Of a DNA stretch of 13,143 nucleotides, positions 2 through 12,710 are shown piece after piece. Numbering within the stretch: position 1 is the stretch's first letter; each line of letters starts with the position of its first letter. The stretch spans positions 1 to 13,143 of the forward strand of contig CALMVM010000361.1 in assembly GCA_937873255.1 (NCBI GenBank), given 5' to 3'. The stretch comes from an uncultured Verrucomicrobiota bacterium (GTDB lineage: Bacteria > Verrucomicrobiota > Verrucomicrobiia > Chthoniobacterales > SZAS-18). The notes beneath the pieces were generated by a model. That model saw only the letters and a program-made list of their open reading frames with translations. It was not told the DNA's origin and did no database searches. A program made the position numbers and the translations under genes.

Positions 2-949
2 AACGGGGCGATCCTGTTGTTCTATCCCGGCCGGGCCGACATGTTCCGGCTCGATGACGGCGAGCCATTGTCTTCGGTCGAAGGCCCGGAGGGAATGTGC
101 TGGAGAAGCGGGCGGTATTACCGGCTTTATCCGGGGAGCGAGGCCCAATGGTACCACGCGGCCTGGGACGGACTGGAAGGCGGGTTCCACCCCATCAACG
201 GCGACGTGGGAGCGGCCCGCGTCGTGTTCGACCGCACGGGGCGGCCCGGCCCCTGGATGTTGACGGACCGGGGCGAGGTTTGCCACGTCGAGAGCCGGGG
301 CAGCATTTTCTCCCTCGGCAAACCCGTGGACGCAAATCGGTGGGTCTGCGTCTCGCGCGACGGCCATCATCTTTATCTGTCGTCGAACAAATCGGGTATG
401 ATGGAGTGCATCGACCTGAAGAACAACCGCGTCCAAGATCTGGTCTTCGATGCGAGACTCACGACGGGATTGATCGGCGAACCGTTCCTGGTCAAGCCGG
501 CCTACCCGATCATGAACCGCTTTTCCGCCGTGGGCGTGATGCCGTCGGGAAATCTCGCGCTGCAAAACCGCTGGGGCTGGTGGTGGGAATTCCTCGAGTA
601 CGAGCAAGGGGCCGTCGGACTGCGCCGGCTGCCGGTGCGCGACGAACTCAGCCTGCGAAGGCGCGCCCGTCCCTTCGTCCCGTTGGCGCTCCCACGTCGG
701 GCCGGCTACCGGCTGAAGGAGGCGCGCTGGCCTGACGGCAGCCGGGCGTTCCTCGACAGCCGGGGGTTGCTGCACCTGAAATTTTCCACGGCGGAGTTCA
801 GCCTCGTTCTGACCGACTGTCCGTCCGCGCTCTGGGCCAGCGACGGTCGGACGGCGGGAGCGGATTTCTTTCTCGGCCCCGACCAATCCAGAACGGGCCT
901 CGACAATCTCATGCCGACCTTCCGCGCGCTTTGCGGACGCCTCCAATGA
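2..949 (+). CDS. Beta-propeller protein of a bpX-type ternary system (5' end cut off)
   Basis: The frame is open to the left edge, reading NGAILLFYPGRADMF from base 2, so the true start lies outside and the TTG at 17 is not a credible start. The visible 315 residues are all beta-strand-like, with short blades built around aromatic/Gly and DG turns: YYRLYPGSEAQWYHAAWDG, VVFDRTGRPGPWMLTDRG, WVCVSRDGHHLYLSSNKSG, RAFLDSRGLLHL, ALWASDGRTAG. This fits a beta-propeller. There is no signal peptide or membrane segment in the visible part, so it is probably cytoplasmic. It overlaps the next gene by ATGA (946-949), so the two are translationally coupled. The neighbour is a bpX6-type protein, which makes this one of the other bpX propeller subunits of a MoxR-vWA-beta-propeller system. 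I cannot say which bpX family. In these systems the propeller is thought to act as scaffold or sensor beside the MoxR ATPase and vWA protein; that role is family knowledge, not visible here. Confidence 0.75.
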   Translation, partial: NGAILLFYPGRADMFRLDDGEPLSSVEGPEGMCWRSGRYYRLYPGSEAQWYHAAWDGLEGGFHPINGDVGAARVVFDRTGRPGPWMLTDRGEVCHVESRGSIFSLGKPVDANRWVCVSRDGHHLYLSSNKSGMMECIDLKNNRVQDLVFDARLTTGLIGEPFLVKPAYPIMNRFSAVGVMPSGNLALQNRWGWWWEFLEYEQGAVGLRRLPVRDELSLRRRARPFVPLALPRRAGYRLKEARWPDGSRAFLDSRGLLHLKFSTAEFSLVLTDCPSALWASDGRTAGADFFLGPDQSRTGLDNLMPTFRALCGRLQ

Positions 950-3783
950 ACCCGCCGGACGAACCCCGACCGTTGCGCCTGACACCCGCGCCGCCCGCTT
1001 CCGGCGAACGGACGGCCGCGTGGTTTCTTTCCGGCGGCGAACCGTCGGCGTGGCTGTCGGAAATCTGCGAACGGACGCCGGGCAACGCCCAGGCGGAACT
1101 CAAACTCTACGTCGTCCCGCGTTCGGGCGCGGACCGTCGTCCCGCAGGGGCGCTGGTCGTCTGGCCGGGGGAGGAACCGACTCCCGCCTCGGCCCGTTCC
1201 CAACCGTACCGGGTGCTGATCGGGCGCTTCTATCTGCCGGCCGACGCGCGGCTCGAACCGCCCGTCGGCGACGACGAACTCACCCGACTCTGCCCACCGG
1301 GGGGATTATTCGTCTTCCATCCGGGTGCGGGGCTGTGCGCCTTCCGCGCCGACGACGCCCTGTCGTTGTCGGACCTCCTTTCCGCGCCGGCCGTCTCGAT
1401 GGAGAACTGGACCGGCGCACACCCGGGACTGACGCCCAACACCCGGCTGCGGTCCGTCCGGTTGGAGATGCCCGCCGACCTCGGATCGCTCTTCAGCGAG
1501 GCCGCCCGGGAAATCGGCGTCGATCCCCCGAACACCGGGGAAATGCCGCCCGCGCCCGGCGAGGCGGCGACCGGACCCGCCGCGTCGCTGGGCCGGAAAT
1601 GGCAGGAGTGGCTGGCCTCTCTGACGCTGGGGTTCACGGGGATGCTGCCGCGCACGGCTTCGGCGCGCACCTGGGTCAATGACCTGGAGGATTGGGCCAA
1701 AAACGCCCGTGGCCGGGTCAGCCGGGACCTCGGCGAGATCCGCCACCGCGAGCTCCACCGCCTGCTGCATCTGCTGGAGAATAATCCCGCCGAAGGACTG
1801 CGCCGCGCGCTGCCGCTCGCGGGGCTCTTCCGGCGGCGGGGGGTCGCGCCGCCCGGCGGTCAACTCGTCCGGCGGGACCCGAACTTCCGCCTCGGCGCGC
1901 TCGCCGGCGGCGGGGCGGCGGACGCCTGGGACGTACCGCCGGACCTGCAAGCCCGCCTGCGCGAGCGTTACCGGCAGTTGGCCAACGAGGAAACGCGTCT
2001 GGGCCGATACCGTCGCGCGGCCTACATCCACGCCGAGCTGTTGGGCGACCTGTCTTCCGCCGCCGGCTGTCTCAAGCAGGGGGAACATTATCACGAGGCC
2101 GCCGTCCTCTACCGCGACCACCTCGCCCGCCCGCTGGAAGCGGCGGATTGCCTCGCGGCGGGCGGCGAGTACGCGGAGGCCGCCAAACTTTACGAGAAGG
2201 AAAAATGCTTCCTCCAGGTCGCCGCGATGCACCACGCGATGGGCGACGAAGGGGCCGCCGCCGGCGCCTACCGCCGCGAGGTGAACCGGCTCGTGGCGGC
2301 AGACGACCGGATCGGCGCCGCCGAGTTGCTCGAAACGAGACTCGGCGTCCCGGACGAAGCCCTTGGTCTGCTGTGGGGAGGCTGGACCGGCGGATCGCCG
2401 CAGGCCAGCCGCTGTCTGGAAAAATTATTCGAGCGGTTCGGTGCCCGGGGAATGCACACGCGGGCGGCCGGACTGATCGTTGATTTGTCCGCCGAAAACC
2501 TCGCTCCCGCGCGCGCCGTTCTGCTGGCGCGGCAGCTGGCCACGGCGCAGGAAAGCTATCCTGACGAAACCGTGCGCCACGCGGCGCGCGACCTCGCGCG
2601 CGTGACCGTCGCCGGCGGGCTGCCCGCCGCCGAGCCGACGGAGGTACGGGGCCTCGTGGAACTCCTCGGCCGGCTGGCCCCGCAGGATCGGCTCCTCGTC
2701 CGCGACGGCCAGCGTTACCTTGCCGACCGTCTCGAACAGGAAAAACGCCGGCCGGCTCCCGGCCCGATCACCGCAAGAACGACGCCCCCCGCGCTGGCCT
2801 CGCGCCGGACCGTGCGCCGGGCGGGTTCGTTCCAGATGCCGCCGGGGGCGCGTTGGCAGCAGTTCCGTTCGATGGGGAATTATTTCCTCGCCGCCGGCCA
2901 TGTTCCCGACAAGAGGCAGGTAAAGCTGGCACGCGTTGCCTGGGATGGATTCAGCCAGAGCGTGGTCTGGCCGGACATCGGCCCCTGGAAGGTGGGCGAA
3001 GAGCACAATCCCTTGCTCTTGGAAGCGGCAGGGCAGGCGGGCGGGTTTGTGGTGTGTGCCCCGGTGTTCGGGGTCGGGCCGATGCTGGGACCCCGTCGTT
3101 TTGCGGTCGCGGATCGCTCCGGGTGGCAGTCGATGGAGTGCGGACAACCGACCTGGTGGCCTGGGATGGTGCTCGCCGTTTCGTGGGCCGCCGACGGCAA
3201 CCTCTGGCTCCTGCGCGTGCAGGATGACGGCGACGATCCGATCCTTGTCTGTCACGCGCCGCATGGGGGGATCGTGTCGCAAATGACGTTCCCGCTGTCG
3301 GCCGCGCAGATGGCCGCAGGACAAAAACCGTCCGGCTTCCACATCATCCATTCGAGGGATTGTCTGCTCATCGCCTTCGCCGACCGGCTCCTGATGCGTC
3401 AAGGGGCGTCCACTTGGAAGGAACTGGCTTTCGACGCGCCGATCACCGGGCTCGTGCCGACGCCCGCCCTGGCGCGGGCGGGCTGTGCGGTGCAGTTGGA
3501 AAATGGCGTGGCGCTCCTGTGGCTCGACCAACCATCGGAGGCGCAAACCGTCGTCACCGGCCTGGCGCGACCGCTGGCGGCGTTCACCCGGCTGGGCACT
3601 CTCGCGGTCGTTTCCAGGGAAGATCGCGCGGGGAGATTGTTCGAAATCGTCGTCGGAGAAGCGCGCGAGGCGGCTGCTTTCAGCGGGGTGGGGGAGAAGC
3701 CCGTGGTCTTGCTCGGCACCGCCGACCGCGAGGCGTTCGCCATCGTCGATGAGGCTGGGCCCGTGCATCTTTATACGGGCTGA
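946..3783 (+). CDS. bpX6-type ternary-system protein: bpX6 region, TPR-like repeats, C-terminal beta-propeller
   Basis: A 945-residue protein starting at the ATG inside the ATGA overlap with the upstream gene; the in-frame TTG at 931 is less likely. Residues about 88-155 hold the pattern I associate with bpX6 (RVLIGRFYLPADARLEPP, HPGAGLCAFRADDALSLSDL, a Trp near 155). Residues about 236-330 carry a second conserved stretch (RTASARTWVNDLEDWA, RELHRLLHLLENNPAEGLR, DAWDVPPDLQ). Residues about 330-540 are paired helices of TPR or clathrin-repeat type, for example YRRAAYIHAELLGDL, HEAAVLYRDHL, YAEAAKLYEKE. Residues about 625-945 form a beta-propeller, with strands ending GPVHLYTG. No signal peptide or membrane span is evident. 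Known of the family: bpX6 proteins accompany MoxR AAA+ ATPases, vWA proteins and other propellers in predicted conflict or regulatory systems. The repeats plus propeller suggest a large assembly platform. Family assignment is from memory of sequence patterns; the biochemical role is unknown. Confidence 0.82.
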   Translation: MNPPDEPRPLRLTPAPPASGERTAAWFLSGGEPSAWLSEICERTPGNAQAELKLYVVPRSGADRRPAGALVVWPGEEPTPASARSQPYRVLIGRFYLPADARLEPPVGDDELTRLCPPGGLFVFHPGAGLCAFRADDALSLSDLLSAPAVSMENWTGAHPGLTPNTRLRSVRLEMPADLGSLFSEAAREIGVDPPNTGEMPPAPGEAATGPAASLGRKWQEWLASLTLGFTGMLPRTASARTWVNDLEDWAKNARGRVSRDLGEIRHRELHRLLHLLENNPAEGLRRALPLAGLFRRRGVAPPGGQLVRRDPNFRLGALAGGGAADAWDVPPDLQARLRERYRQLANEETRLGRYRRAAYIHAELLGDLSSAAGCLKQGEHYHEAAVLYRDHLARPLEAADCLAAGGEYAEAAKLYEKEKCFLQVAAMHHAMGDEGAAAGAYRREVNRLVAADDRIGAAELLETRLGVPDEALGLLWGGWTGGSPQASRCLEKLFERFGARGMHTRAAGLIVDLSAENLAPARAVLLARQLATAQESYPDETVRHAARDLARVTVAGGLPAAEPTEVRGLVELLGRLAPQDRLLVRDGQRYLADRLEQEKRRPAPGPITARTTPPALASRRTVRRAGSFQMPPGARWQQFRSMGNYFLAAGHVPDKRQVKLARVAWDGFSQSVVWPDIGPWKVGEEHNPLLLEAAGQAGGFVVCAPVFGVGPMLGPRRFAVADRSGWQSMECGQPTWWPGMVLAVSWAADGNLWLLRVQDDGDDPILVCHAPHGGIVSQMTFPLSAAQMAAGQKPSGFHIIHSRDCLLIAFADRLLMRQGASTWKELAFDAPITGLVPTPALARAGCAVQLENGVALLWLDQPSEAQTVVTGLARPLAAFTRLGTLAVVSREDRAGRLFEIVVGEAREAAAFSGVGEKPVVLLGTADREAFAIVDEAGPVHLYTG

Positions 3784-3787
3784 TTTT
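3759..3787 (+). terminator. Possible hairpin at the end of the bpX operon
   Basis: GCCCGT (3759-3764) and ACGGGC (3775-3780) are a perfect 6-base inverted repeat with a 10-base loop, extendable by G-T wobbles at both ends. It is followed by the stop codon and a short TTTT. The stem lies within the last codons of the bpX6-type gene. The short stem and four-T run make it a weak intrinsic-terminator candidate only. Confidence 0.3.
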
Positions 3788-3824
3788 CCGGTGTTTTTGC
3801 GTGACCCGGGCGGGGGTTTTCGGT

Positions 3825-3828
3825 AGGA
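3825..3828 (+). promoter_or_regulatory. Ribosome binding site deciding the GTG start at 3837
   Basis: AGGA lies 8 bases before the GTG at 3837. The competing in-frame GTG at 3801 has no such motif, and its extra 12 residues do not look like family sequence. Confidence 0.5.
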
Positions 3829-3836
3829 TTTTCCTC

Positions 3837-4148
3837 GTGAAATCTACCTGCTACCGGCAAGGCGACGTGTTCCTGATTCCCGTCCGCGCGATGGCCGCAA
3901 ACGCCGAGCGCCAACATCGCCACGGCGTCCTCGCCGAAGGCGAGGTCACGGGCCATTCCCACCGTTTCGCGGTCCCTGCGGAAGCCGACGTTTTCAAGGC
4001 GGGCGGGAACCTCTACGTGGACGTGCTCGCCGACGACGCCGAAGTCATCCACCAGGAACACGGCACGATCCGTTTGCCGCGCGGAACGTACGAAGTGCGC
4101 ATCCAGCGTGAGTACACCCCCAAGGGCATTCGGCGGGTGGTGGACTGA
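3837..4148 (+). CDS. Small conserved protein of unknown function, next to the LRR/DUF6745-like gene
   Basis: 103 residues from the GTG at 3837, preferred over the GTG at 3801 because AGGA (3825-3828) sits 8 bases ahead and the recognisable family sequence starts at CYRQGDVFLIPV. Conserved-looking stretches are YRQGDVFLIPV (6-16), VLAEGEVTGHSHRF (31-44), HQEHGTIRLPRGTYEV (72-87) and QREYTPKGIRRVVD (90-103). The rest is mostly beta strands with no signal peptide or membrane span, so it looks like a small cytoplasmic beta-barrel. Histidines pair up as H40/H42 and H72/H75, which could be a metal site; that is inference. I recall this family (YRQGDV, EVTGHxH, EEH, QREY) as a short hypothetical protein commonly located beside DUF6745-like proteins, as here, where such a gene follows 30 bases later. 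It may serve as an accessory or antitoxin-like partner, but nothing in the sequence establishes a function. Confidence 0.78.
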   Translation: MKSTCYRQGDVFLIPVRAMAANAERQHRHGVLAEGEVTGHSHRFAVPAEADVFKAGGNLYVDVLADDAEVIHQEHGTIRLPRGTYEVRIQREYTPKGIRRVVD

Positions 4149-4178
4149 ACCGACGGCATCCCGATTTTTCCTCGTGCC

Positions 4179-5126
4179 ATGAACCGCCCCACGAAAACCG
4201 CGCCCGAATGGAAACGGCAACTCCTGCTCGGCCAGTTGCCGCAGGAGACCGTTCTACGCAGCATTGACCTGTCCGGCGAAGGCACGTTGTCCACGCTGCC
4301 GGACGGGTTGCGTTGCTTCAGCCTCAACCTGAGCAAGACGGGGGTCTGCGGATTGCCGGCCGATCTGCTCGTCGAATTCAAGACCGACCTCAGCGATTGC
4401 ACGGCCCTGGAGAGCCTGCCTCGCGGGTTGAAAACCGGCTCACTGGTGCTCAGCCGTTGCGTCGCCCTGAAGGCGTTGCCGGAGGATCTCGAAGTCAATT
4501 TCCTGACTCTGGACGGCTGCGCGAACCTGGAGCACTGGCCCGAAAGCGCCCGCGTGAGCATCGGCACGGTCAGCGCGCGGGAGTGCGCGAACCTCTCCCG
4601 GTTGCCCGCCACGCTGCAAAGCCTGACCAACCTGGACCTGCGCGGTTGCCGCCGCATCGGTGCCCTGCCGCCTGGCCTGCGGTTGAGCGGTTGGCTCGAC
4701 CTGGCGGGCACGGGCATCCAAAGTTTGCCGGATTCGCTGCGGGGTGTGCGCCTGCGGTGGCGCGGGGTGGAGATCAACGCGCAAATCGCCTTTTTCCCGG
4801 AAACGCTGACGGCCGCGCAGATCCTCGCCGAGCCCAACGCCGAGGTGCGGCGCGTCATGCTGGAACGCCATGGGCTGGAGAATTTCCTGCGCGATGCGCA
4901 CGCGCACGTTCTCGACGAAGACACCGACCCGGGCGGCCCGCGCCGATTGTTGCGCGTGCCGATGGCGGGCGACGAAGCCCTGGTCTGCGTGTCGCTGCGC
5001 TGTCCGTCCACGGCGCGGCAATACCTCATCCGCGTGCCGCCGGAGACGAAAACCTGCCACGCGGCGGTGGCCTGGACGGCGGGTTACGACGACCCCGACG
5101 ATTATCACCCGCTCGCCGAGACCTGA
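4179..5126 (+). CDS. Leucine-rich-repeat protein with DUF6745-like C-terminal domain
   Basis: 315 residues from the ATG at 4179, 30 bases after the small gene, with no good Shine-Dalgarno. Residues about 25-200 are bacterial LPx-type leucine-rich repeats of about 21 residues: LSTLPDGLRCFSLNLS, LESLPRGLKTGSLVLSRC, LKALPEDLEVNFLTLDGC, IGALPPGLRLSGWLDLAG, IQSLPDSL. Residues about 211-315 form a separate conserved domain: ILAEPNAEVRRVMLERHGLE, DEDTDPGG (246-253), RRLLRVP, CPSTARQYLIRVPP (275-288), TCHAAVAW, AGYDDPDDYHPLAET (301-315). I recall this tail, ending in RVPP..T..AAAW..G and a final LxET, as DUF6745 or a close relative. There is no signal peptide, so it is probably cytoplasmic. LRR plus domain implies protein recognition coupled to an unknown activity. 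Its 3' end overlaps the convergent ATP-grasp gene by 22 bases. LRR identification is strong; the DUF6745 link is from memory. Confidence 0.82.
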   Translation: MNRPTKTAPEWKRQLLLGQLPQETVLRSIDLSGEGTLSTLPDGLRCFSLNLSKTGVCGLPADLLVEFKTDLSDCTALESLPRGLKTGSLVLSRCVALKALPEDLEVNFLTLDGCANLEHWPESARVSIGTVSARECANLSRLPATLQSLTNLDLRGCRRIGALPPGLRLSGWLDLAGTGIQSLPDSLRGVRLRWRGVEINAQIAFFPETLTAAQILAEPNAEVRRVMLERHGLENFLRDAHAHVLDEDTDPGGPRRLLRVPMAGDEALVCVSLRCPSTARQYLIRVPPETKTCHAAVAWTAGYDDPDDYHPLAET

Positions 5127-6268
5127 GCGGGCGGCGGCCGTTCCAGCAGCCGGGCAAACTCGGCCGTGTAGGTGTCGCGTCCCTCGTGCGGAAGATTGGG
5201 CAACAGGTCGCCGAAGGCGTTGACCTCCGCCACGGCGAACCGGCGAAACCCCGGAGCCACCAGCAGATCGACCGCCACGTAGAGAGAGGCCGGGAACGCC
5301 CCCGCCGCGCGTTCGGCCACTTCCAGCGCGGTCTGCCACGCGACAGGTCCCATTCGCCGCCGCAACCCGTCGAGATCGCCGCGCCGGTTGCCGAGGTGCA
5401 GGTTGGTGATCGGTCCGGCGCTCTGACGCATCACCGCGTGCGCCGACCGGCCCCCGATGACCAGAATTCGCAGGTCGAACCGTTCCCCGTCGTGACCCGC
5501 TTTCGGGAACCAGCGTTCCGCGACGCTGCGCTGGCGGCAAACGGCATCGACCAGTTCCGCGATCAGGCGGGGGTCGCGGTATTCCCGCACGGTCAGCGAG
5601 TTGAACAACCGTCCCTCTGCCATCTCCACGGTGCTGAACGCCCGTGCGCCCGTCCGGCTCGTTTCCAGCGCGACCACGCCCGAGGCCGACGAACTGTGGC
5701 ACGGTTTCAAGAACGCCCGTCCGCAACCCGCGTCGCGCATGATCTCGCGCAGATGTTCGTACGACTCCGGCAGGCCGAGCAGTTGCGGACGCGGCACATC
5801 CGACGCGCCGAGGATTTCGTGGCACTGTGCCTTGTCGAACATCGCGGCAATGTCCGCCGGCGGGTTCATGGCGCGGCGGTCTTTCGCTTTCGCCAATAGA
5901 TGCGCCAGCCGCTGCAGAGTCTTCCGCCAGCCCAAATACCACTGACGCATTGGCAAAATCTCTCCTCGGCGGAAGGGAAGGGCCTCTAATTCCTCCGGCG
6001 CAAGGCGTTCGAAAGCCTCCGCCGCCGCTTCGTCAGCACCGAGACGGAGCAGCGCCTTCTCGACCCAAAAATCCTCGCCTGGCGATTCGATGCGCAGCCA
6101 GCCATCGGGCCGCATGTGATTCGCTAACCTCTCCGGGTCGTGCAAAAACTCCCGCCACGATACCGTCGATACCTCCCGCCAGCCGAGCGAATCGGCCGCG
6201 CGTTGGGCGAATACAACTCGGCGGTTCCACGGATTCCCCAGGATGACCAGCGGCGGCCGTGCGGACAT
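5105..6268 (-). CDS. STM4014 family ATP-grasp protein
   Basis: 387 residues. GGAG sits only 3 bases before the ATG, and the upstream STM4015-type gene ends 15 bases earlier, so the two are probably co-transcribed. The N-terminal part (about 1-130, VILGNPWNRRVVFAQRAADS) resembles a pre-ATP-grasp domain. The ATP-grasp fold follows: DKAQCHEILGASDVPRPQ (145-162), AFLKPCHSSSASGVVAL (185-201) with the ATP-contacting Lys188 and a Ser/Gly loop, FDLRILVIGG (264-273), NLHLGNRRG (289-297), YVAVDLLV (330-337) and AEVNAFGDLLPNLP (347-360), where D334, E348 and N350 are the expected magnesium ligands. Known: ATP-grasp enzymes join a carboxylate to an amine or thiol through an acylphosphate; RimK-like relatives ligate amino acids to proteins or peptides. 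The STM4014 assignment rests on this fold together with all four other STM4011-4015 partners being adjacent. The substrate is unknown; the LRR neighbour is a candidate. It is probably cytoplasmic. Confidence 0.88.
   Translation of the reverse strand: MSARPPLVILGNPWNRRVVFAQRAADSLGWREVSTVSWREFLHDPERLANHMRPDGWLRIESPGEDFWVEKALLRLGADEAAAEAFERLAPEELEALPFRRGEILPMRQWYLGWRKTLQRLAHLLAKAKDRRAMNPPADIAAMFDKAQCHEILGASDVPRPQLLGLPESYEHLREIMRDAGCGRAFLKPCHSSSASGVVALETSRTGARAFSTVEMAEGRLFNSLTVREYRDPRLIAELVDAVCRQRSVAERWFPKAGHDGERFDLRILVIGGRSAHAVMRQSAGPITNLHLGNRRGDLDGLRRRMGPVAWQTALEVAERAAGAFPASLYVAVDLLVAPGFRRFAVAEVNAFGDLLPNLPHEGRDTYTAEFARLLERPPPAQVSASG
5108..5131. terminator. Hairpin at the convergent gene junction, possible bidirectional terminator
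   Basis: CCCGCTC (5108-5114) and GAGCGGG (5125-5131) form a perfect 7-base, GC-rich inverted repeat with a 10-base loop. It lies exactly where the LRR gene and the ATP-grasp gene end tail to tail. Neither side has a T tract, so if it ends transcription it is not a canonical intrinsic terminator. The stem also forms part of both coding ends. Confidence 0.38.
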
Positions 6269-6283
6269 GAACTCCGACCCGGT

Positions 6284-7195
6284 CTACTCCGAAACGGCGA
6301 TGTAGCGGTCGTCCTCCTCCTCGCCCTGCTGCTGCTGGCTCAGGTCCACGTTCACACCGCTGTTTTTGAGCCGCGCCATCATGTCGTCGGAGAGATAGTG
6401 ATGGTGCAGGTCCAGTTTTTTCAATCCGTAGAAAGCGTCGCTGCCGAGCAGTGCCGCCGCGCCCTCGTCGGTGAGCGTGCCGAGCGACAGATCGAGCGTT
6501 TCCAGCCGGGCAAGAATCGGTGCGAGGGCGATGGCGGCGGCAATCTCGTCCTGGAATTCGCTGTCGCGCAGACCCAGATATTTCAGCCTGGGAAATTTCT
6601 TGCCCGACAACACCGGTTCCAGATCGCTCAGGGTGATGTTGCCGCCGTAGTTATCGCTGCCGAGCCAGATTTCCAGGTGTTCCAACCCGGGCAGGTCTTC
6701 TGCGACGGCTTCCCGCAAGACGCCCACGTCCAGGCCACCCGACTCGATGACGAGCGATTTTAGTTTGGCGTGATGGATTTCGCCGAATTCGAGTCCGTTG
6801 GACCCACGGATGCGGAAATGCTCCAGGTTCGGGTAGGCTCGGAAAAGCGGCGACACGTCGCTTTGGTTGATCCAACTGATCTCGCATTCCTCGCTGATGA
6901 TGTCGCCCAGGAAAATGCCGCGCAGTTTCGGCAGGCGCGCCCGCAGGGCGACCAGCGCCTCGACGATGGCCACCGGCGTGCTGTCGTGCTCGCCGTACAG
7001 ACCGAAGATGAGCGCGGGCGTCTCCTCGCTGCCGGGACCACCGATGAACCGGGCGAGAACGTCGGTCAACGGCTCTTCCGCCTCGTAGTCCGAGGCGAGG
7101 CGGTAGACCTTGTTGCGATAGTCTGGCGTGCCATTGGCGGGGTCGTAAAGTTCGACCGGATAACCGAGCCATTCCGTGGCGTGTTCGGGGATCAT
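6284..7195 (-). CDS. STM4015 family leucine-rich-repeat protein
   Basis: 303 residues from the ATG at 7195, first gene of the minus-strand pair. The N-terminal 110 residues (GYPVELYDP, YRLASDYE, ALIFGLYGEHD, PKLRGIFLGDI) form a conserved lead-in. Residues about 105-285 are ribonuclease-inhibitor-like leucine-rich repeats: YPNLEHFRIRGS, AKLKSLVIESGG, LPGLEHLEIWLG, FPRLKYLGLRDSEFQD, LARLETLDLSLGTLTDEGAA, FYGLKKLDLHHHYLSDD. It ends in a glutamine-rich acidic tail finishing RYIAVSE, which I recall as a feature of the STM4015 family. There is no signal peptide or transmembrane segment. Family knowledge: STM4015 proteins are encoded with the STM4011-4014 enzymes and have no known activity. As the only non-enzymatic member, it may be the adaptor or the protein substrate of the radical SAM and ATP-grasp enzymes. 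That is inference. It differs in repeat type from the LPx-type LRR protein at 4179-5126. Confidence 0.86.
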   Translation of the reverse strand: MIPEHATEWLGYPVELYDPANGTPDYRNKVYRLASDYEAEEPLTDVLARFIGGPGSEETPALIFGLYGEHDSTPVAIVEALVALRARLPKLRGIFLGDIISEECEISWINQSDVSPLFRAYPNLEHFRIRGSNGLEFGEIHHAKLKSLVIESGGLDVGVLREAVAEDLPGLEHLEIWLGSDNYGGNITLSDLEPVLSGKKFPRLKYLGLRDSEFQDEIAAAIALAPILARLETLDLSLGTLTDEGAAALLGSDAFYGLKKLDLHHHYLSDDMMARLKNSGVNVDLSQQQQGEEEDDRYIAVSE

Positions 7196-7247
7196 GGGGC
7201 TTTCGGAAAAGGGGCGTTCGGGATAGGGTCAGGATTAACACGGCGCG
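7196..7247. promoter_or_regulatory. Divergent intergenic spacer, expected to hold both operon promoters
   Basis: Only 52 bases separate the ATG of the STM4015-type gene (minus) from the ATG of the HAD gene (plus), so promoters for both arms should lie here or inside the opposing genes. It contains the least GC-rich bits locally (GGAAAAGG, GGATTAACA), but I cannot point to a convincing -35/-10 pair on either strand. AGGA at 7231-7234 is 13 bases before the HAD start, rather far for a ribosome binding site. Confidence 0.45.
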
Positions 7248-7934
7248 ATGCTCGATCCAAGGACAATCTCGGTGGTGGCCTGGGACCTGGACAACACACT
7301 CTTCGACCGCGATGCTGCGGTGCGACGCTTTTTCCAGTGGTATCTGGCGCGGCTCGGCCGGGACGCGCCGGAGAGGGGTGGACCCGTCTTGCTGGAAGCG
7401 ATCATGGCGCTGGACAACGGCGGGCACGGCGACCGGCTGGCCTTTTGCCGAGAGGTGCGCGTGCTCTGCGGACACGACCCCGCTACGGCCGGCCAATTGT
7501 GGACCGCCTGGCAGAAGAAACTGCCGGAGTTCATCCAACCCGACAGCGCGACCGTCGGCGCTTTGTTCTGGCTGCGGAACCGCTTCCGCCACGCACTGAT
7601 CTCTAACGGCGGCGGTGCGTTGCAGCGCGCCAAACTGCGGAGCGCAGGCGTGCGGCACCATTTCGGGGCAGGCGACATTTTCATCTCGGGCGAGGTCGGG
7701 TTCGAGAAGCCCGACCGGCGGATATTCGAGGCGGCACTGTGCGCTTGGGGCATACCGCCGGAACAAATTCTCCACGTGGGCGACCATCCGACAAACGACA
7801 TCATGGGTGCCGCCGCCTTGGGGATGCGGACGTGCTGGGTATCGCGGGGTCGTATCCCGCCGCCGGACATGCGCGCGGACGCGACGGTGGAACATTCCCG
7901 GGAGGTTGCGTCCCTGATCTTGCCAAAACGATGA
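7248..7934 (+). CDS. HAD-superfamily hydrolase (subfamily IA type), first gene of the radical SAM operon
   Basis: 228 residues from the ATG at 7248. All four HAD motifs are visible: motif I WDLDNTLFD with the nucleophile Asp13 and Asp15; motif II LISNGGG with Ser119 and Asn120; motif III Lys154 in GFEKPDRRIFE; motif IV HVGDHPTNDIMGA with Asp179 and Asp184. A helical cap of about 85 residues (roughly 20-105) lies between motifs I and II, as in subfamily IA/C1-cap phosphatases and dehalogenases. It is probably a cytoplasmic phosphatase; substrate cannot be read from the sequence. Its stop overlaps the next start by ATGA (7931-7934), tying it to the STM4013-type gene. I do not recall a HAD protein among the five Salmonella STM4011-4015 genes, so here it is an added member. 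It could dephosphorylate a pathway intermediate or clean up a by-product. Confidence 0.9.
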   Translation: MLDPRTISVVAWDLDNTLFDRDAAVRRFFQWYLARLGRDAPERGGPVLLEAIMALDNGGHGDRLAFCREVRVLCGHDPATAGQLWTAWQKKLPEFIQPDSATVGALFWLRNRFRHALISNGGGALQRAKLRSAGVRHHFGAGDIFISGEVGFEKPDRRIFEAALCAWGIPPEQILHVGDHPTNDIMGAAALGMRTCWVSRGRIPPPDMRADATVEHSREVASLILPKR

Positions 7935-8734
7935 TCCGAGACATGAACCGGCTCGTGGGCACGCACGACGTGGTGTTCATCACGCTGGACACCCTGCGTT
8001 TCGACGTGGCGGACCAGTGTTTCCGCCAGGGCCGGACGCCGAATTTCTCCTGGTGGTTCCCCGGCGGCTGGGAGAAACGCCACACCGCCGGCAGTTTCAC
8101 CTACGCCGCGCACCAGGCATTTTTCGCGGGATTCCTGCCGACGCCGGTGGACGCGCCCGGCGCTCCCCGGCTGTTCGCCGCACGGTTCGCGGGCAGCGAG
8201 ACGACCGGCAAGGAAACCTGCGTGTTCGACGCGCCGGACATCGTCGCGGGCCTGCATGGACGCGGCTACCACACGGTCTGCATCGGCGGGGTGGGGTTCT
8301 TCAACAAACTGACCCCGTTGGGCAGCGTCCTGCCCGGCTTGTTCGACGAGAGCCACTGGTCGCCGGAACTCGGTGTGACGAACCCGGACTCGACGCGCGC
8401 GCAGTTCGCCCTGGCAGTCCGGCGGTTGGAGGAATTGCCGCTGGCGCAGCGCGTTTTTTTGTTCATCAACGTCAGCGCGATCCACCAGCCGAACCGGCAC
8501 TATCTCGACGGCGCGGCGGAAGATTCGCTAGCCAGCCACGCCGCCGCGCTTTGCCATGTGGACGGGGAGCTTCCCCGGTTGCAGCAGGCGCTGGCGCGGC
8601 GGGGCGCGGCGGTCGTGATCGTGTGTTCCGATCACGGCACGCTTTATGGGGAAGACGGTTTCACCGGGCATCGGATCGGGCATCCGGCGGTCTGGACGGT
8701 GCCCTACGCCGATGGCATCTTCCCCGCCACATGA
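7931..8734 (+). CDS. STM4013/SEN3800 family hydrolase (alkaline-phosphatase superfamily)
   Basis: 267 residues, started at the ATG of the ATGA overlap with the HAD gene. The frame stays open back to 7739, but that stretch reads the HAD gene out of frame and is not protein-like. The next ATG, at 7943, is an alternative. Superfamily metal-site features are in the expected order: VVFITLDTLRFDVADQ (14-29) with Asp20, a likely nucleophile Thr58 in GSFTYAAHQAFFAG 38 residues later, IVCSDHGTLYGEDGF (230-244) with Asp234/His235, and GHRIGHPAVW (246-255) with His247 or His251. Sulfatases and phosphatases of this fold use two metals to cleave sulfate or phosphate esters. It is short for a sulfatase (usually over 400 residues) and has no CxPxR formylglycine motif, so phosphoester hydrolysis or transfer is more likely. 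There is no signal peptide, so it is probably cytoplasmic. Family call is from sequence pattern plus the STM4011/4012/4014/4015 context. Confidence 0.88.
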   Translation: MIRDMNRLVGTHDVVFITLDTLRFDVADQCFRQGRTPNFSWWFPGGWEKRHTAGSFTYAAHQAFFAGFLPTPVDAPGAPRLFAARFAGSETTGKETCVFDAPDIVAGLHGRGYHTVCIGGVGFFNKLTPLGSVLPGLFDESHWSPELGVTNPDSTRAQFALAVRRLEELPLAQRVFLFINVSAIHQPNRHYLDGAAEDSLASHAAALCHVDGELPRLQQALARRGAAVVIVCSDHGTLYGEDGFTGHRIGHPAVWTVPYADGIFPAT

Positions 8735-10056
8735 GCCTGCGCGAACGTCTCCAGCTCCAGCCGTTCCAGGGTTACGCGTACTCCTACCCGCACAAGCTGG
8801 CGTATCGCCCGTTCGCGCCGGCGCTGCCGCTTGCCCCGCTCTGGGCAAGGGAGGATCGGCGGGCGCTTTTTTTGTACGTGCATCTTCCATTTTGCGAGAT
8901 GCGCTGCGGCTTTTGCAACCTGTTCACCACGGCGAATCCGCAGGAAGGCGTGGTGGACGCCTACCTGGCGGCGCTGGAGCGTCAGATGCGGGTCATGGGA
9001 GCGGTCCTGACCCCCGCGCGTTTCGCCCGGGCGGCGTTCGGCGGTGGGACGCCGACGTTTCTTTCCGAGGGGGAAATCGAGAGGATTTTCGCCGGGATCG
9101 ACCAGCACCTGGGCGGCATTGCGCCGGGGGTGCCCGTGTCCTTCGAGATGTCGCCCGCGACCGTCTCGGCCGGAAAATTGCAAACGTTGAAAAACCTCGG
9201 AGTGACCCGGGCGAGTATCGGCGTGCAGAGTTTCCTGATCGAAGAAACGAAGGCGCTCGGCCGCCCGCAGAATCCGGCCGACGTGGCCCATGCGCTGACC
9301 CTCATGCGGGAGGCCGGGTTCGCGGTGTTGAATCTCGACCTGATCTACGGCGCGCCGAACCAGACGACGAAATCTTGGGAACATTCGCTGCGGGAAGCGA
9401 TGCGCTGGACGCCCGAAGAAATCTACCTTTATCCGCTCTACGTGCGTCCACTGACCGGACTGGAACGGTTGCGCCGGGAGCCGTCCGACCTGCGTTTGGA
9501 GTTGTACCGTCGCGGGCGCGATTTTCTTCTCGCTCATGGCTACCGGCAGCTTTCCATGCGGCTATTCCGCCGCGCGGAAGTGGAGGCCGATCCCACGGAC
9601 GGCGGCCCGGTTTATTGTTGCCAGGAGGACGGCATGGTGGGCCTCGGGGCCGGCGCGCGCTCGTACACGCGGGACGTGCATTACAGCAGCGAGTACGCCG
9701 TGGGCCGGGCCGGGGTGCGCGGGATCATCGCGGATTTCAGCGCCTGGTCCGACGCGCGGCTCGAAACGGCGGATTACGGCTGCGCGCTGACCCCTGACGA
9801 GCGGCGGCGGCGCTACGTGATCAAGTCGCTGTTGCGCAGCAGCGGATTGTCGCTGACGGCTTACCGCGAGGAATTCGGCGGGGACGCGATGGAGGACTTC
9901 GCCGAACTCGGGGAGTTACCCGGGTATGGGTTGGCCGAACGCGAGGGCGACCGGCTCGTGTTCACCGCCGCCGGCCTGGAACGTTCGGACACGGTCGGTC
10001 CGGCGCTTTTTTCACGCGACACCGAGCGGCGGATGGAGGAATTTGACCTTGCATGA
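8731..10056 (+). CDS. STM4012 family radical SAM protein (HemN-like)
   Basis: 441 residues from the ATG in the ATGA overlap with the STM4013-type gene; the open frame back to 8017 is antiphase to real coding sequence. The N-terminal YAYSYPHKLAYRPF (15-28) is typical of this family as I recall it. The SAM/4Fe-4S motif is CEMRCGFC (Cys55, Cys59, Cys62) in LYVHLPFCEMRCGFCNLF, followed by FGGGTPTFLSEGEIERIF (103-120), SFEMSPATV (137-145), RASIGVQSF (160-168) and LNLDLIYGAP. This is the order seen in HemN/HemW. The C-terminal part (RRRYVIKSLLRSSGLSLTAY) resembles the HemN C-terminal domain. The fourth cysteine of the HemN CX3CX2CXC signature is replaced by Leu64. Radical SAM chemistry generates a 5'-deoxyadenosyl radical; the HemN branch includes oxidases and methyltransferases. 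It is not expected to be a heme enzyme, given this motif and context. It is probably cytoplasmic and oxygen-sensitive; substrate unknown. Confidence 0.92.
   Translation: MSLRERLQLQPFQGYAYSYPHKLAYRPFAPALPLAPLWAREDRRALFLYVHLPFCEMRCGFCNLFTTANPQEGVVDAYLAALERQMRVMGAVLTPARFARAAFGGGTPTFLSEGEIERIFAGIDQHLGGIAPGVPVSFEMSPATVSAGKLQTLKNLGVTRASIGVQSFLIEETKALGRPQNPADVAHALTLMREAGFAVLNLDLIYGAPNQTTKSWEHSLREAMRWTPEEIYLYPLYVRPLTGLERLRREPSDLRLELYRRGRDFLLAHGYRQLSMRLFRRAEVEADPTDGGPVYCCQEDGMVGLGAGARSYTRDVHYSSEYAVGRAGVRGIIADFSAWSDARLETADYGCALTPDERRRRYVIKSLLRSSGLSLTAYREEFGGDAMEDFAELGELPGYGLAEREGDRLVFTAAGLERSDTVGPALFSRDTERRMEEFDLA
10035..10040 (+). promoter_or_regulatory. Strong ribosome binding site ahead of the STM4011-type gene
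   Basis: GGAGGA inside the 3' end of the STM4012-type gene is 12 bases before the ATG at 10053. It is the best Shine-Dalgarno in the operon, though the spacing is long. It could let the last gene be translated independently of coupling. Confidence 0.45.
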
Positions 10057-10931
10057 AGGCGTGGTCCATCCTTTACCGAGGCCCGCTTTCCAGTTGCAAC
10101 TACGGTTGCGATTATTGCCCGTTCGCCAAGACGACGAACACCCGGGAAGAACTGCGCGACGACGAGGAGAAACTCATCCGGTTCGCCGATTGGGTGGAGG
10201 GCAGGCGGGAGAGCATCGGCGTTCTGTTCACGCCGTGGGGCGAGGCGCTTTTTCATCGTGCGTACCAGCAGGCCATCACGCGGTTGAGCCGCCTGCCCAA
10301 CGTGCGCCGGGTGTCGATCCAGACCAACCTTTCCGCGCCCCTCGACTGGCTGGCGGATTGCGCGGCGGGGACGGTCGCGCTGTGGACGACGTTCCACCCG
10401 ACGCAGACCACCCGGGCGAGGTTTCTCGCGCGGTGCGCGGAGTTGGACCGCCTCGGCGTCGCGCACAGCGTGGGAGTCGTCGGATTGATCGACGTCCTCG
10501 CCGACATCGAGGCCCTCCGCCGGGAACTCAACCCGGCAACGTATCTGTGGGTGAACGCGTACAAGCGGCAGCCCGACTATTATTCGCCCGTGGACCTCGC
10601 CCGGCTCGAACGGGTGGACCCGTTGTTCCCGCTGAACGCTCGCCATTACCCTAGCCTGGGTGAGAGCTGCCGGGGCGGGGCCAGCGTGTTTTCCGTGGAC
10701 GGCGAGGGCACGATGCGGCGCTGTCATTTCATCCGCGCGCCCATCGGCAACATCTACGAACCCGGGTTTGAGTCTGCCCTGCGCGAGCGGCCCTGCACGA
10801 ACGAAACGTGCGGCTGTCACATCGGCTACGTGCATCTCGACCGGCTCGATCTTTACGGGACGTTCGGCGAAGGGGTGCTCGAACGGATTCCCGTCCGGGG
10901 CAGCTTTTCCTCCGCGCGTCGCACCGCTTAG
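10053..10931 (+). CDS. STM4011 family radical SAM protein with SPASM-like C-terminal cysteines
   Basis: 292 residues from the ATG in the ATGA overlap with the STM4012-type gene. The N-terminus reads WSILYRGPLSSCNYGCDYCP, with the SAM-cluster motif CX3CX2C at Cys15, Cys19 and Cys22. GVLFTPWGEALFH (56-68) takes the place of the usual GGE stretch, and VSIQTNLS (87-94) matches the beta-strand/Asn motif of radical SAM activases and SPASM enzymes. The C-terminus adds Cys206, Cys224, Cys248, Cys253 and Cys255. Cys206-X12-Gly-X4-Cys224 fits the first half of the SPASM consensus, and CX4CXC follows. This suggests at least one auxiliary Fe-S cluster, as in enzymes that modify peptides or proteins. It is last in the operon; 147 bases separate it from the next gene. 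Family assignment is strong by context and pattern; the reaction is unknown. It is probably cytoplasmic. Confidence 0.92.
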   Translation: MKAWSILYRGPLSSCNYGCDYCPFAKTTNTREELRDDEEKLIRFADWVEGRRESIGVLFTPWGEALFHRAYQQAITRLSRLPNVRRVSIQTNLSAPLDWLADCAAGTVALWTTFHPTQTTRARFLARCAELDRLGVAHSVGVVGLIDVLADIEALRRELNPATYLWVNAYKRQPDYYSPVDLARLERVDPLFPLNARHYPSLGESCRGGASVFSVDGEGTMRRCHFIRAPIGNIYEPGFESALRERPCTNETCGCHIGYVHLDRLDLYGTFGEGVLERIPVRGSFSSARRTA

Positions 10932-11078
10932 GAAACGGGCCGGACGCTCCGCGGTTGTTCTGTCCGGTGGTGCATCCTGCCAGGAAGCAGTCGGCGCGCG
11001 ACAACGCCGGTTCGGCAACGCGGATGGGCGGTTTCTGGCACTTCATCTGCTCACCATGGGGTTCTCCCTGCGAGTGCC
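10932..11078. other. Intergenic gap after the STM4011-type gene
   Basis: 147 bases with no convincing gene. It contains CCGGAC (10940-10945) and GTCCGG (10962-10967), a 6-base inverted repeat with a 16-base loop and no T tract, so only a weak terminator candidate for the radical SAM operon. A promoter for the ankyrin gene is expected here, but I see no clear sigma-70-type boxes. Confidence 0.4.
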
Positions 11079-12710
11079 ATGGTTCATCCCTGTTTTCCTT
11101 CCACCGGCGGACGCGACCCGGAACGCCGGAGACTCGTTCCAAGCACTGCCAGGTTCTTCCTGCCGGGCCTGTTCGCACTCCTGAGCGCCGTTTCCTTTCC
11201 CGCCGCCGCCGCTGAGACTCCCGGCCGCGCGCCGCAGCGCGACCCGCGACTGGACGCCCCTCTGCTGGAGGCAGCGGAAGCCGGCGACGCTGCGAAGGTC
11301 AAAATTCTCCTGGATCAGGGGGCCGACCCAAAAACGTGCAACCGTTTCGGCTGGCCGGCTTCCGTCCTCGCCGCCCGGCGCGGACACACGGAAGTGTTGC
11401 GCCGACTCTACGAGCGCGACGAAGACACGGCCGAACAAAACGCCCCCGGCCATTGGACGCCCATCATCGAAGCCGCCAAGCACAGCCACCTGGAAGCCGT
11501 CCGCTTCCTGCTGGCCTGCCACGTGGAACCGCAAGAGGAGACCGACGAGGGAGACTCTGCGGAAGGCTACGCCGAGGGACGCGGCTATCGGGAAATCGTC
11601 GCTCTGTTGCGCCAGGCATCGGGCCAGCCGCCTGAAATCGCCCCGGCGACCGACGGCGAATCCCCGCTCGTATCCGCCGCCACCGACGGGGACGCCGCCG
11701 TGCTCGCCCGGCTCCTCGACGGGGGCGAATCGGTCGAGTCGCGCAACCAGCAGGGCCAGACCCTCTTGATTTGCGCGGTCAGGGGCGACCGGACCGAGGC
11801 GGTGCGGCTGCTGCTCGCCCGGCACGCCGATCCCAACAACCTCTCGCTCTTCGGCTGTTCAGCGTTGGATTTTGCCGTCGACCGTGGCCGCGAGGAAATC
11901 GTCAAGCTGCTGCTGGAAGCCGGCGCGGATCCGAACGGCTTCCGCTCGCACGACGCCTTCGGCGACGGTTTTTCGCCTCTGTTCCAATCGTTCAAGGCCG
12001 GCCGGGTCGAACTTGTCAAGCTCCTGCTGGCTCACGGCGCACGGCTAGATGACACCAACAACGCCGGAGACACCGCGCTGCTGCAAGCCGCCCGGTGGCC
12101 GCACGTCGAGACGCTCGCCTTTCTGGTGGCGCAGGGTCAGTCCGTCCAAACGGCCAACCGCTACGGGTGCACCCCTCTGATGTACGCGGCGACCAACGGC
12201 TGCGAGGAGAATATCCGCTTCCTGCTCGCCCACGGGGCGGACCTGCAAGCCAAGGCCAAAAACCGCAACCCCGAACGGCGCACGGGCCAGCCGTTCGGCG
12301 CGCTCGAAGCGGCCATCATCCACGGCGAGCCCTACGCGCAGGAAATCCTGATCGACGCCGGGGCCAGGCCGGCCAACCCCGGGGCCGCGCTCACCGAGGA
12401 ACTCTTCAAGGGCATCGACGGGAAAGATTTCGAGCGTGTGCAGGCTGCTTTGCACAAAGGCGCTTCCGCGAACGACCCCGACGACTCCAACCGGCATCCC
12501 CTCCAAGTCGCCGTCCTCGAAGGCGAGCTGGGCCTCGTGCGACTCTTGCTCAAGTCGGGCGCGGACCCGAATGGCTCACCCGGCGACGGGCCGGCCTCCA
12601 CTCCCCTGGGCTACGCGCGGGAACGTCTGGGGGCTGCCGAGGACGCGGGCGAAAAACAGATCTTCACCCGCATCATCGAACTCCTCCAGCAGGCTCACGC
12701 CACCCGATGA
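11079..12710 (+). CDS. Exported ankyrin-repeat protein
   Basis: 543 residues from the ATG at 11079; no later ATG/GTG/TTG start lies before the signal sequence. An unusually long, Arg-rich n-region (RDPERRRLVPSTAR) precedes the hydrophobic FFLPGLFALLSAVSF and an Ala-rich cleavage region near residue 45 (PAAAA/ETP). It therefore looks like a Sec signal peptide with no lipobox, placing the protein in the periplasm or outside. Residues about 58-540 are ankyrin repeats, about eleven in number: APLLEAAEAGDAAKVKILLD, GQTLLICAVRGDRTEAVRLL, SALDFAVDRGREEIVKLLLE, CTPLMYAATNGCEENIRFLL, HPLQVAVLEGELGLVRLLLK, with GADPN and GARLDDTNNAG loops. Around residues 145-190 and 395-460 the repeats are degenerate (EETDEGDSAEGYAEGRG, KAKNRNPERRTGQPF), which may be spacers. 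Ankyrin arrays bind proteins; no catalytic domain is seen. The gene overlaps the CsgG-like gene by ATGA (12707-12710), so the two products may work together in the envelope. Confidence 0.88.
   Translation: MVHPCFPSTGGRDPERRRLVPSTARFFLPGLFALLSAVSFPAAAAETPGRAPQRDPRLDAPLLEAAEAGDAAKVKILLDQGADPKTCNRFGWPASVLAARRGHTEVLRRLYERDEDTAEQNAPGHWTPIIEAAKHSHLEAVRFLLACHVEPQEETDEGDSAEGYAEGRGYREIVALLRQASGQPPEIAPATDGESPLVSAATDGDAAVLARLLDGGESVESRNQQGQTLLICAVRGDRTEAVRLLLARHADPNNLSLFGCSALDFAVDRGREEIVKLLLEAGADPNGFRSHDAFGDGFSPLFQSFKAGRVELVKLLLAHGARLDDTNNAGDTALLQAARWPHVETLAFLVAQGQSVQTANRYGCTPLMYAATNGCEENIRFLLAHGADLQAKAKNRNPERRTGQPFGALEAAIIHGEPYAQEILIDAGARPANPGAALTEELFKGIDGKDFERVQAALHKGASANDPDDSNRHPLQVAVLEGELGLVRLLLKSGADPNGSPGDGPASTPLGYARERLGAAEDAGEKQIFTRIIELLQQAHATR

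Follow-up and report, generated by a model that had tools for sequence, protein, structure and literature searches.

The five proteins STM4011 to STM4015 are encoded side by side in the window, a stretch of 13,143 nucleotides from an uncultured Verrucomicrobiota bacterium, and comparative evidence strongly supports their forming one pathway. The preliminary description of this DNA had suggested the installation of an unusual group on a peptide, protein or small molecule; this is still plausible but was unspecific. The evidence now points to a single site, the glutamate at the C-terminus of STM4015, and to a first step of a single class, in which STM4014 would carry out a LysX/RimK-type ligation. 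On the overall reading, to which a probability of about 45% is assigned, STM4014 would charge the terminal glutamate of STM4015, and the radical SAM and phosphatase-type enzymes would then act on the group so attached.

In a profile search, all five window proteins passed the curated NCBIfam cut-offs, and the divergent arrangement and the span of 5105-10931 given in the preliminary description were both borne out. On the minus strand lie STM4014 (5105..6268), an ATP-grasp ligase of the LysX/ArgX/RimK kind (NF038074, 363.9 bits against a cut-off of 175), and STM4015 (6284..7195), an LRR protein that is the proposed carrier or substrate and has a solved relative, 2RA8 (NF038076, 347.9 bits against 275). 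The plus strand carries STM4013 (7931..8734), an alkaline-phosphatase-superfamily hydrolase (NF038075, 398.2 bits against 250), STM4012 (8731..10056), a HemN/NocN-like radical SAM enzyme (NF006067, 550.3 bits against 380), and STM4011 (10053..10931), a radical SAM enzyme whose C-terminal part is rich in cysteine (NF038073, 383.2 bits against 200). This plus-strand operon is headed by a HAD-IA family phosphatase (7248..7934; PF00702, 59.0 bits against 26.4), which a divergent spacer of 52 bp, the presumed promoter region (7196..7247), separates from STM4015. By sequence, STM4013, STM4012 and STM4011 start at ATG codons at 7931, 8731 and 10053, each forming an ATGA overlap with the stop of the preceding gene (matches below 100 bits were not counted in this mapping). 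A DUF6745 protein with an LRR-like N-terminal part (4179..5126, plus strand; PF20530, 80.7 bits against 27) overlaps the 3′ end of STM4014 by 22 bp at its own 3′ end, and its small partner of about 103 amino acids occupies approximately 3837..4148 on the same strand, with an uncertain start codon (GTG at 3837 or 3801). The HAD phosphatase, the DUF6745 protein and the small protein had been absent from the gene set first described. No sigma-70-like promoter sites were found in 3700-11100, no RNA elements reached Rfam gathering scores, and 11 terminator-like sites were counted, where shuffled sequence gave 7.1 on average. A role in anti-phage defence was considered and rejected, with PADLOC matching 0 of 8 proteins, apart from STM4012, which hit PDC-M51A weakly and partially (27.7 bits, E 2.7e-7).

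Support for a single pathway, as the preliminary description had also claimed, comes from the behavior of the genes as a unit across about eleven phyla (by our own grouping). Genes were mapped in 82 chromosomal loci, comprising the window, one other locus (L034) and 80 contigs found through STM4011, and in 57 of them all five lie within 4.9-11.1 kb; at least one of the five is missing from the fetched stretch in the other 25, an uncorrected count that includes many short or edge-cut contigs. Whole-genome searches for 18 loci without a local STM4015 recovered it elsewhere in the genome at E≤1e-8 for 16, including 15 at E<1e-50 and 8 over the family cut-off, and found none for two. Of the 64 loci that have both STM4015 and STM4014, 63 place STM4015 immediately upstream of STM4014. 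Further, STM4015, STM4014 and STM4011 were found in the same 10 of 145 genomes of one cyanobacterial class, a sample that includes one genome picked because it bears the cluster (G378). A phylum-wide search for STM4013 at a loose E value was dominated by general sulfatases, with matches in 142 of 288 genomes and 3 over the cut-off.

The gene set is larger than five, as HAD phosphatases and the pair of DUF6745 and small protein accompany it in some loci. STM4013 directly follows the HAD-IA gene in all 27 loci that have one, and the HAD phosphatases near the cluster are of two kinds. DUF6745 is present in 21 of 90 loci, with small-protein homologs beside it in 20 of 90 and in 17 of the 18 chromosomal loci with DUF6745; among 97 relatives, it occurs in two, the same two that have STM4015. 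No other neighborhood family appeared in more than 9 of the 90 loci, for which gene calls are crude and rarer families lack annotation; those seen by eye include histidine kinases, ABC ATPases and FtsH-like proteins, and Pfam annotates only one. Likewise, no recurring peptidase or exporter family was seen near the cluster in these 90 loci with their crude gene calls, and the product may therefore stay bound to the protein.

The C-terminal end of STM4015 consists of an acidic linker followed typically by RYVAV[GS]E; in the window, the tail reads RYIAVSE (6287..6307, minus strand) and ends in E303. Glutamate is the last residue in 90 of 93 STM4015 open reading frames, arginine and tyrosine are conserved at positions -7 and -6 (75/91 and 73/91, with different residues in Salmonella and Bacteroides), position -2 is glycine in 37, serine in 32 and threonine in 7 of 91 tails, and no constant serine, threonine or lysine occurs in the 91 tails; one genome (G378/L094) is counted in both tail sets. 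The preceding linker is freely variable (≤1.91 bits). The tail is ordered both in the predicted model and in 2RA8, a structural genomics entry from 2007 (Bacteroides fragilis Q64V53) whose N-terminus is longer than that of the window protein and whose construct has 8 residues beyond the native end, probably a tag. For folding, alignments of 45 rows were used (A5 and A6), drawn from 56 and 79 non-redundant open reading frames; sequences from plasmids were omitted, as were several that are divergent or longer, and in A6 also L034. Searching 20 genomes for the DNA pattern encoding [RS]Y..V.E plus a stop gave 18 matches, compared with 2 for a reversed-pattern control; four of the 18 end in TGG, which is no stop, and the other 14 sit at STM4015 genes, judged by position or tail letters. 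No other protein with the same tail was thus found among the 14 true-stop matches, for a pattern that represents one tail type and is matchless in 10 of the 20 genomes.

STM4014 has the ATP-grasp fold and its conserved catalytic residues, with a presumed ATP/Mg site around K188, R267, E348 and N350, and PDB profile and fold matches place LysX/ArgX and then RimK as its nearest solved relatives, by a modest margin. The folds of Ddl, PurK and glutathione synthetase are almost as close as LysX, and PsnB, a graspetide ligase, ranks fourth in Foldseek. LysX/ArgX and RimK extend the C-terminal glutamate of a protein, and the RimK partner S6 ends in glutamate.

The remaining enzymes were compared in hand-picked alignments (A1, A7 and A8, of 8, 14 and 13 sequences). 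STM4012 matches HemN (1olt, 2.4e-58) and NocN (9p2u, 1.2e-34) in the PDB and has invariant CX3CX2C and GGGTP motifs (13/13 aligned), yet falls short of the model cut-offs for HemN (145.1 of 324.95 bits) and HemW (162.3 of 205.4 bits). In STM4011, CX3CX2C and five further C-terminal cysteines, which may be auxiliary-cluster ligands of the SPASM/twitch kind, are invariant (8/8); its best PDB match, SkfB (6efn), is weak (E 0.001), and no domain model matched. SkfB is a peptide-modifying radical SAM enzyme. STM4013 resembles arylsulfatase and NPP most closely in the PDB, with Pfam matches below gathering scores, and its D20, T57, D234, H235 and H251, which we take to be the metal ligands and nucleophile, are invariant in 14 of 14 aligned sequences.

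What was observed directly is which genes are present and how they co-occur, the conservation of the tail, and the solved folds nearest to the ligase; every reaction, the attached group and its fate are inferred. STM4015 would serve as a carrier protein, or be itself the end target, and would work through its C-terminus, with the LRR body displaying the acidic linker and, after it, RY[VI]AV[GS]E-COOH. STM4014, as a LysX/RimK-type enzyme, would use ATP to activate one carboxylate of the terminal glutamate and couple an amine-bearing group to it. STM4012 and the SkfB-like STM4011 would subsequently remodel the attached group or neighboring tail residues, while STM4013 and the HAD phosphatase may work on a phosphate-bearing substrate or intermediate.

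The same genes could instead make a free small molecule, with STM4014 ligating free amine or amino-acid substrates, STM4015 serving as an enzyme-holding scaffold and its tail as a docking peptide. LRR proteins are commonly binding scaffolds, the closeness of Ddl, PurK and glutathione synthetase to STM4014 would fit such substrates, and the presence of the HAD phosphatase and STM4013 hints at phosphate chemistry with small molecules as substrates; however, a docking peptide would have no need to stand at the exact chain end, where the glutamate is found in 90 of 93 frames, STM4015 pairs specifically with STM4014, and an exporter family did not recur under the crude gene calls, making this alternative unlikely, if a serious one. 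Radical SAM enzymes cross-link or alter core-peptide residues in PQQ and mycofactocin biosynthesis, and an ATP-grasp ligase does so in graspetides. By analogy, the STM4015 tail could be a core peptide that is altered by either kind of enzyme and then cleaved off, as the weak SkfB match, the rank of PsnB and the conserved arginine and tyrosine would allow. Near-invariance is nevertheless limited to the glutamate, given the divergent Salmonella and Bacteroides tails, a constant serine, threonine or lysine partner is missing from the tail, and a peptidase family was not seen to recur under the crude gene calls, and such RiPP-like processing is considered distinctly unlikely.

Two narrower explanations concern the tail itself. 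STM4014 might, like RimK, tag STM4015 for regulation by adding a glutamate or several, the radical SAM enzymes acting elsewhere; RimK is among its nearest solved relatives and has a partner ending in glutamate, but STM4011 accompanies STM4015 and STM4014 in 10 of 10 cyanobacterial genomes, which suggests one pathway and renders a separate tag improbable. That the tail is only a structural LRR C-cap, left unmodified while the cluster acts on some other substrate, agrees with its order in the model and in 2RA8, but the linker ahead of it is freely variable and the precise chain end is conserved, and this explanation is very improbable.

Charging of the STM4015 glutamate by STM4014 would have wider consequences. 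The five families are named by Salmonella locus numbers, and the prediction of a specific site and enzyme makes the cluster testable by mass spectrometry. If true, the carrier-protein idea would reach beyond amino-acid synthesis into radical chemistry, and 2RA8 would gain a link to a pathway. It is conceivable, though doubtful, that the cluster represents a new carrier chemistry scattered across many phyla, in which an LRR protein replaces LysW, a LysX/RimK-like ligase loads the glutamate, and two radical SAM enzymes with phosphatase-type partners build a group on the tail, perhaps leaving a new protein-bound cofactor.

Compared with known systems, the five window proteins are members of the NCBIfam STM4011-STM4015 families, whose models bear the labels subfamily, equivalog or hypothetical equivalog without naming a function; to these, the window adds the HAD-IA gene, the DUF6745 pair and the divergent layout. 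The likeness to LysW/LysX lies in the nearest solved folds of STM4014 and in a partner with an acidic stretch and then a final glutamate, the C-terminus of LysW being EEDWGE in four fetched genes. LysW itself is a small cysteine-rich protein (short in the fetched genes, with CxxC pairs), whereas STM4015 is an LRR protein, and STM4014 scores 17.7 bits against the TIGR02144 (LysX) cut-off of 275.6. The LysW system also has its own pathway enzymes for lysine and arginine synthesis, in place of which STM4014 is partnered by radical SAM and phosphatase-type enzymes. RimK is set apart in a similar manner, as STM4014 reaches 25.1 bits against the TIGR00768 cut-off of 143.4 and is accompanied by an LRR protein dedicated to it and by radical SAM enzymes.

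All five STM4011-STM4015 genes lie in the window, which spans one contig (1-13,143) of a 642-contig, 5.0-Mb assembly, and the ORF list and NCBIfam matches, each above its curated cut-off, bear out the divergent layout claimed in the preliminary description. Three further cluster genes join the five recognized there: a HAD-IA phosphatase gene (7248-7934, plus strand) between the two divergent arms, an LRR/DUF6745 gene (4179-5126, plus strand) whose 3′ end overlaps that of STM4014, and a small gene (about 3837-4148, plus strand) preceding the latter. STM4013, STM4012, and STM4011 start on the plus strand with ATG codons at 7931, 8731, and 10053, respectively, and because each start overlaps the stop of the preceding gene, the HAD-IA phosphatase gene and these three read as one coupled operon. 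A 52-bp gap separates this arm from the start of STM4015 on the opposite strand, where STM4014 follows. Just upstream of the small/DUF6745 pair, a large protein (931-3783, plus strand) carries the bpX3 domain of the MoxR-vWA-beta-propeller ternary system (PF19919, E = 6.9e-35), with relatives at 3 of 90 loci, the window counted; a VWA protein is encoded near the Deinococcus cluster. Downstream of STM4011 is an ankyrin-repeat protein (11079-12710, plus strand) whose NCBIfam matches all fall far under cut-off.

Relatives of STM4011 were sought in genome_contigs, where at least 592 stretches matched and 583 of the listed matches encode a relative; the best 80 of these 583 were retained for the locus sample, which also includes the window and other loci. 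Profiles built here detected STM4011 at 89, STM4012 at 84, STM4013 at 80, STM4014 at 68, and STM4015 at 70 of 90 loci, in a sample picked via STM4011 and rich in short contigs, so that lower partner counts do not as such represent losses. DUF6745, small, and HAD-IA genes were found at 21, 20, and 27 of these loci, and no further recurrent neighbor family exceeded 9 of 90 when 1339 crude gene calls were grouped. All five genes occur at 57 of 82 chromosomal loci, spanning 4.9-11.1 kb. Eighteen loci had no STM4015 in the fetched stretch; it was located elsewhere in 16 of the 18 genomes at E ≤ 1e-8 (in 15 at E < 1e-50, in 8 above cut-off) and was absent genome-wide from two of those searched, one Myxococcales and one Armatimonadetes MAG. 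Across 145 genomes of the class of a Calothrix (G378), STM4015, STM4014, and STM4011 each occur in the identical 10, G378 included; in a set of 97 genomes, the window's own plus relatives, two carry STM4015, and those two are also the ones with DUF6745. The cluster is a genuine unit, and NCBIfam already has names for its members.

STM4014 is immediately preceded by a same-strand STM4015 at 63 of 64 loci with both, with the pair on the strand opposite STM4011 at 21 of the 64, and the STM4013-STM4012-STM4011 order is kept at 74 of 77 loci when only STM4011-STM4014 genes are counted; the cluster therefore consists of two combining units, STM4015-STM4014 and STM4013-STM4012-STM4011. STM4013 directly follows the HAD-IA gene wherever the latter occurs (27/27). 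At two loci, a Bacteroides finegoldii plasmid (L041) and a contig that IMG/VR lists as viral (L122), the C-terminus of STM4011 is fused to a different HAD (PF08282), which also adjoins or lies near STM4011 in Salmonella and Deinococcus records. Having HADs of two types in this gene context suggests that a phosphatase reaction is important. L122 holds all five genes, with a Cof-type HAD in the fusion, and resembles the Bacteroides plasmid version. In L041, STM4013 and STM4012 are reduced to remnants (5935-6316) between intact STM4014 and STM4011. A Streptomyces plasmid (L040, 3848-7889) encodes an STM4013-type hydrolase but none of its four usual partners; the gene is neighbored by radical SAM, thymidylate kinase-like, NUDIX, and lasso-peptide genes.

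The STM4015 C-terminus comprises a variable acidic linker and then, typically, RYVAV[GS]E. Of 93 ORFs, in a set retaining near-identical rows, 90 terminate in Glu, two in Asp, and one in Gly; all three exceptions are extra paralogs. In a second set, 36 of 42 ORFs over 100 bits end in Glu; among the other six, one is the upstream fragment of a gene split in two, the downstream fragment of which carries the RYVAVSE end; another (G497), the sole copy found in its genome, has a frame that ends short of the tail; and four are extra paralogs, of which one also counts among the first-set exceptions. Each of 69 STM4015-bearing loci has at least one Glu-ending copy. Over 91 sequences, the information content is 4.08 bits for the final residue, 3.24 at -6, and 3.31 at -7, compared with at most 1.91 from -8 to -30. 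By our grouping of record titles and taxonomy lines, Glu-ending tails occur in Verrucomicrobiota, Planctomycetota, Bacteroidota, Cyanobacteriota, Chloroflexota, Myxococcota, Acidobacteriota, Pseudomonadota, Actinomycetota, Deinococcota, and Bacillota. LRR proteins beside STM4014 at two planctomycete loci (L042, L073) match STM4015 weakly (42-67 bits) and have another tail type that retains the Glu end (GDYE, GDIE, GDWE). Clusters L083, L085, L078, and L099 hold three or four STM4015 paralogs each, mostly with terminal Glu; one copy in each of L083 and L085 lacks it. STM4011-STM4014 of the same loci have no comparably uniform C-terminal residue; DUF6745 (T in 19/21) and small (D in 20/20) proteins do.

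A related protein of known structure, B. fragilis Q64V53 (PDB 2RA8; structural genomics, 2007; titled with its UniProt name only), is of the STM4015 type. Its native sequence terminates in SYPMITE, with the final Glu at residue 354 of a 362-residue construct; the last eight residues are probably a tag. The alignment extends to residue 357 of 2RA8 against residue 303 of the window STM4015 model, in which residues 291-303 have pLDDT 86-88, so the tail is at least partly ordered. Such order argues against a tail that is simply a floppy arm and is compatible with a structural function. The reading in which STM4014 would charge the C-terminal Glu of STM4015 is given somewhat under even odds.

STM4013 retains D20, T57 (by superfamily precedent the nucleophile), D234, H235, and H251 in 14/14 sequences, and matches arylsulfatase (9.8e-7) and nucleotide pyrophosphatase/phosphodiesterase (1.5e-5) chains. 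In STM4011, the CX3CX2C motif and a further five cysteines in the C-terminal part are conserved in 8/8, and the protein matches SkfB weakly (E = 0.001). STM4012 keeps CX3CX2C and GGGTP in 13/13, and resembles HemN (2.4e-58) and NocN (1.2e-34).
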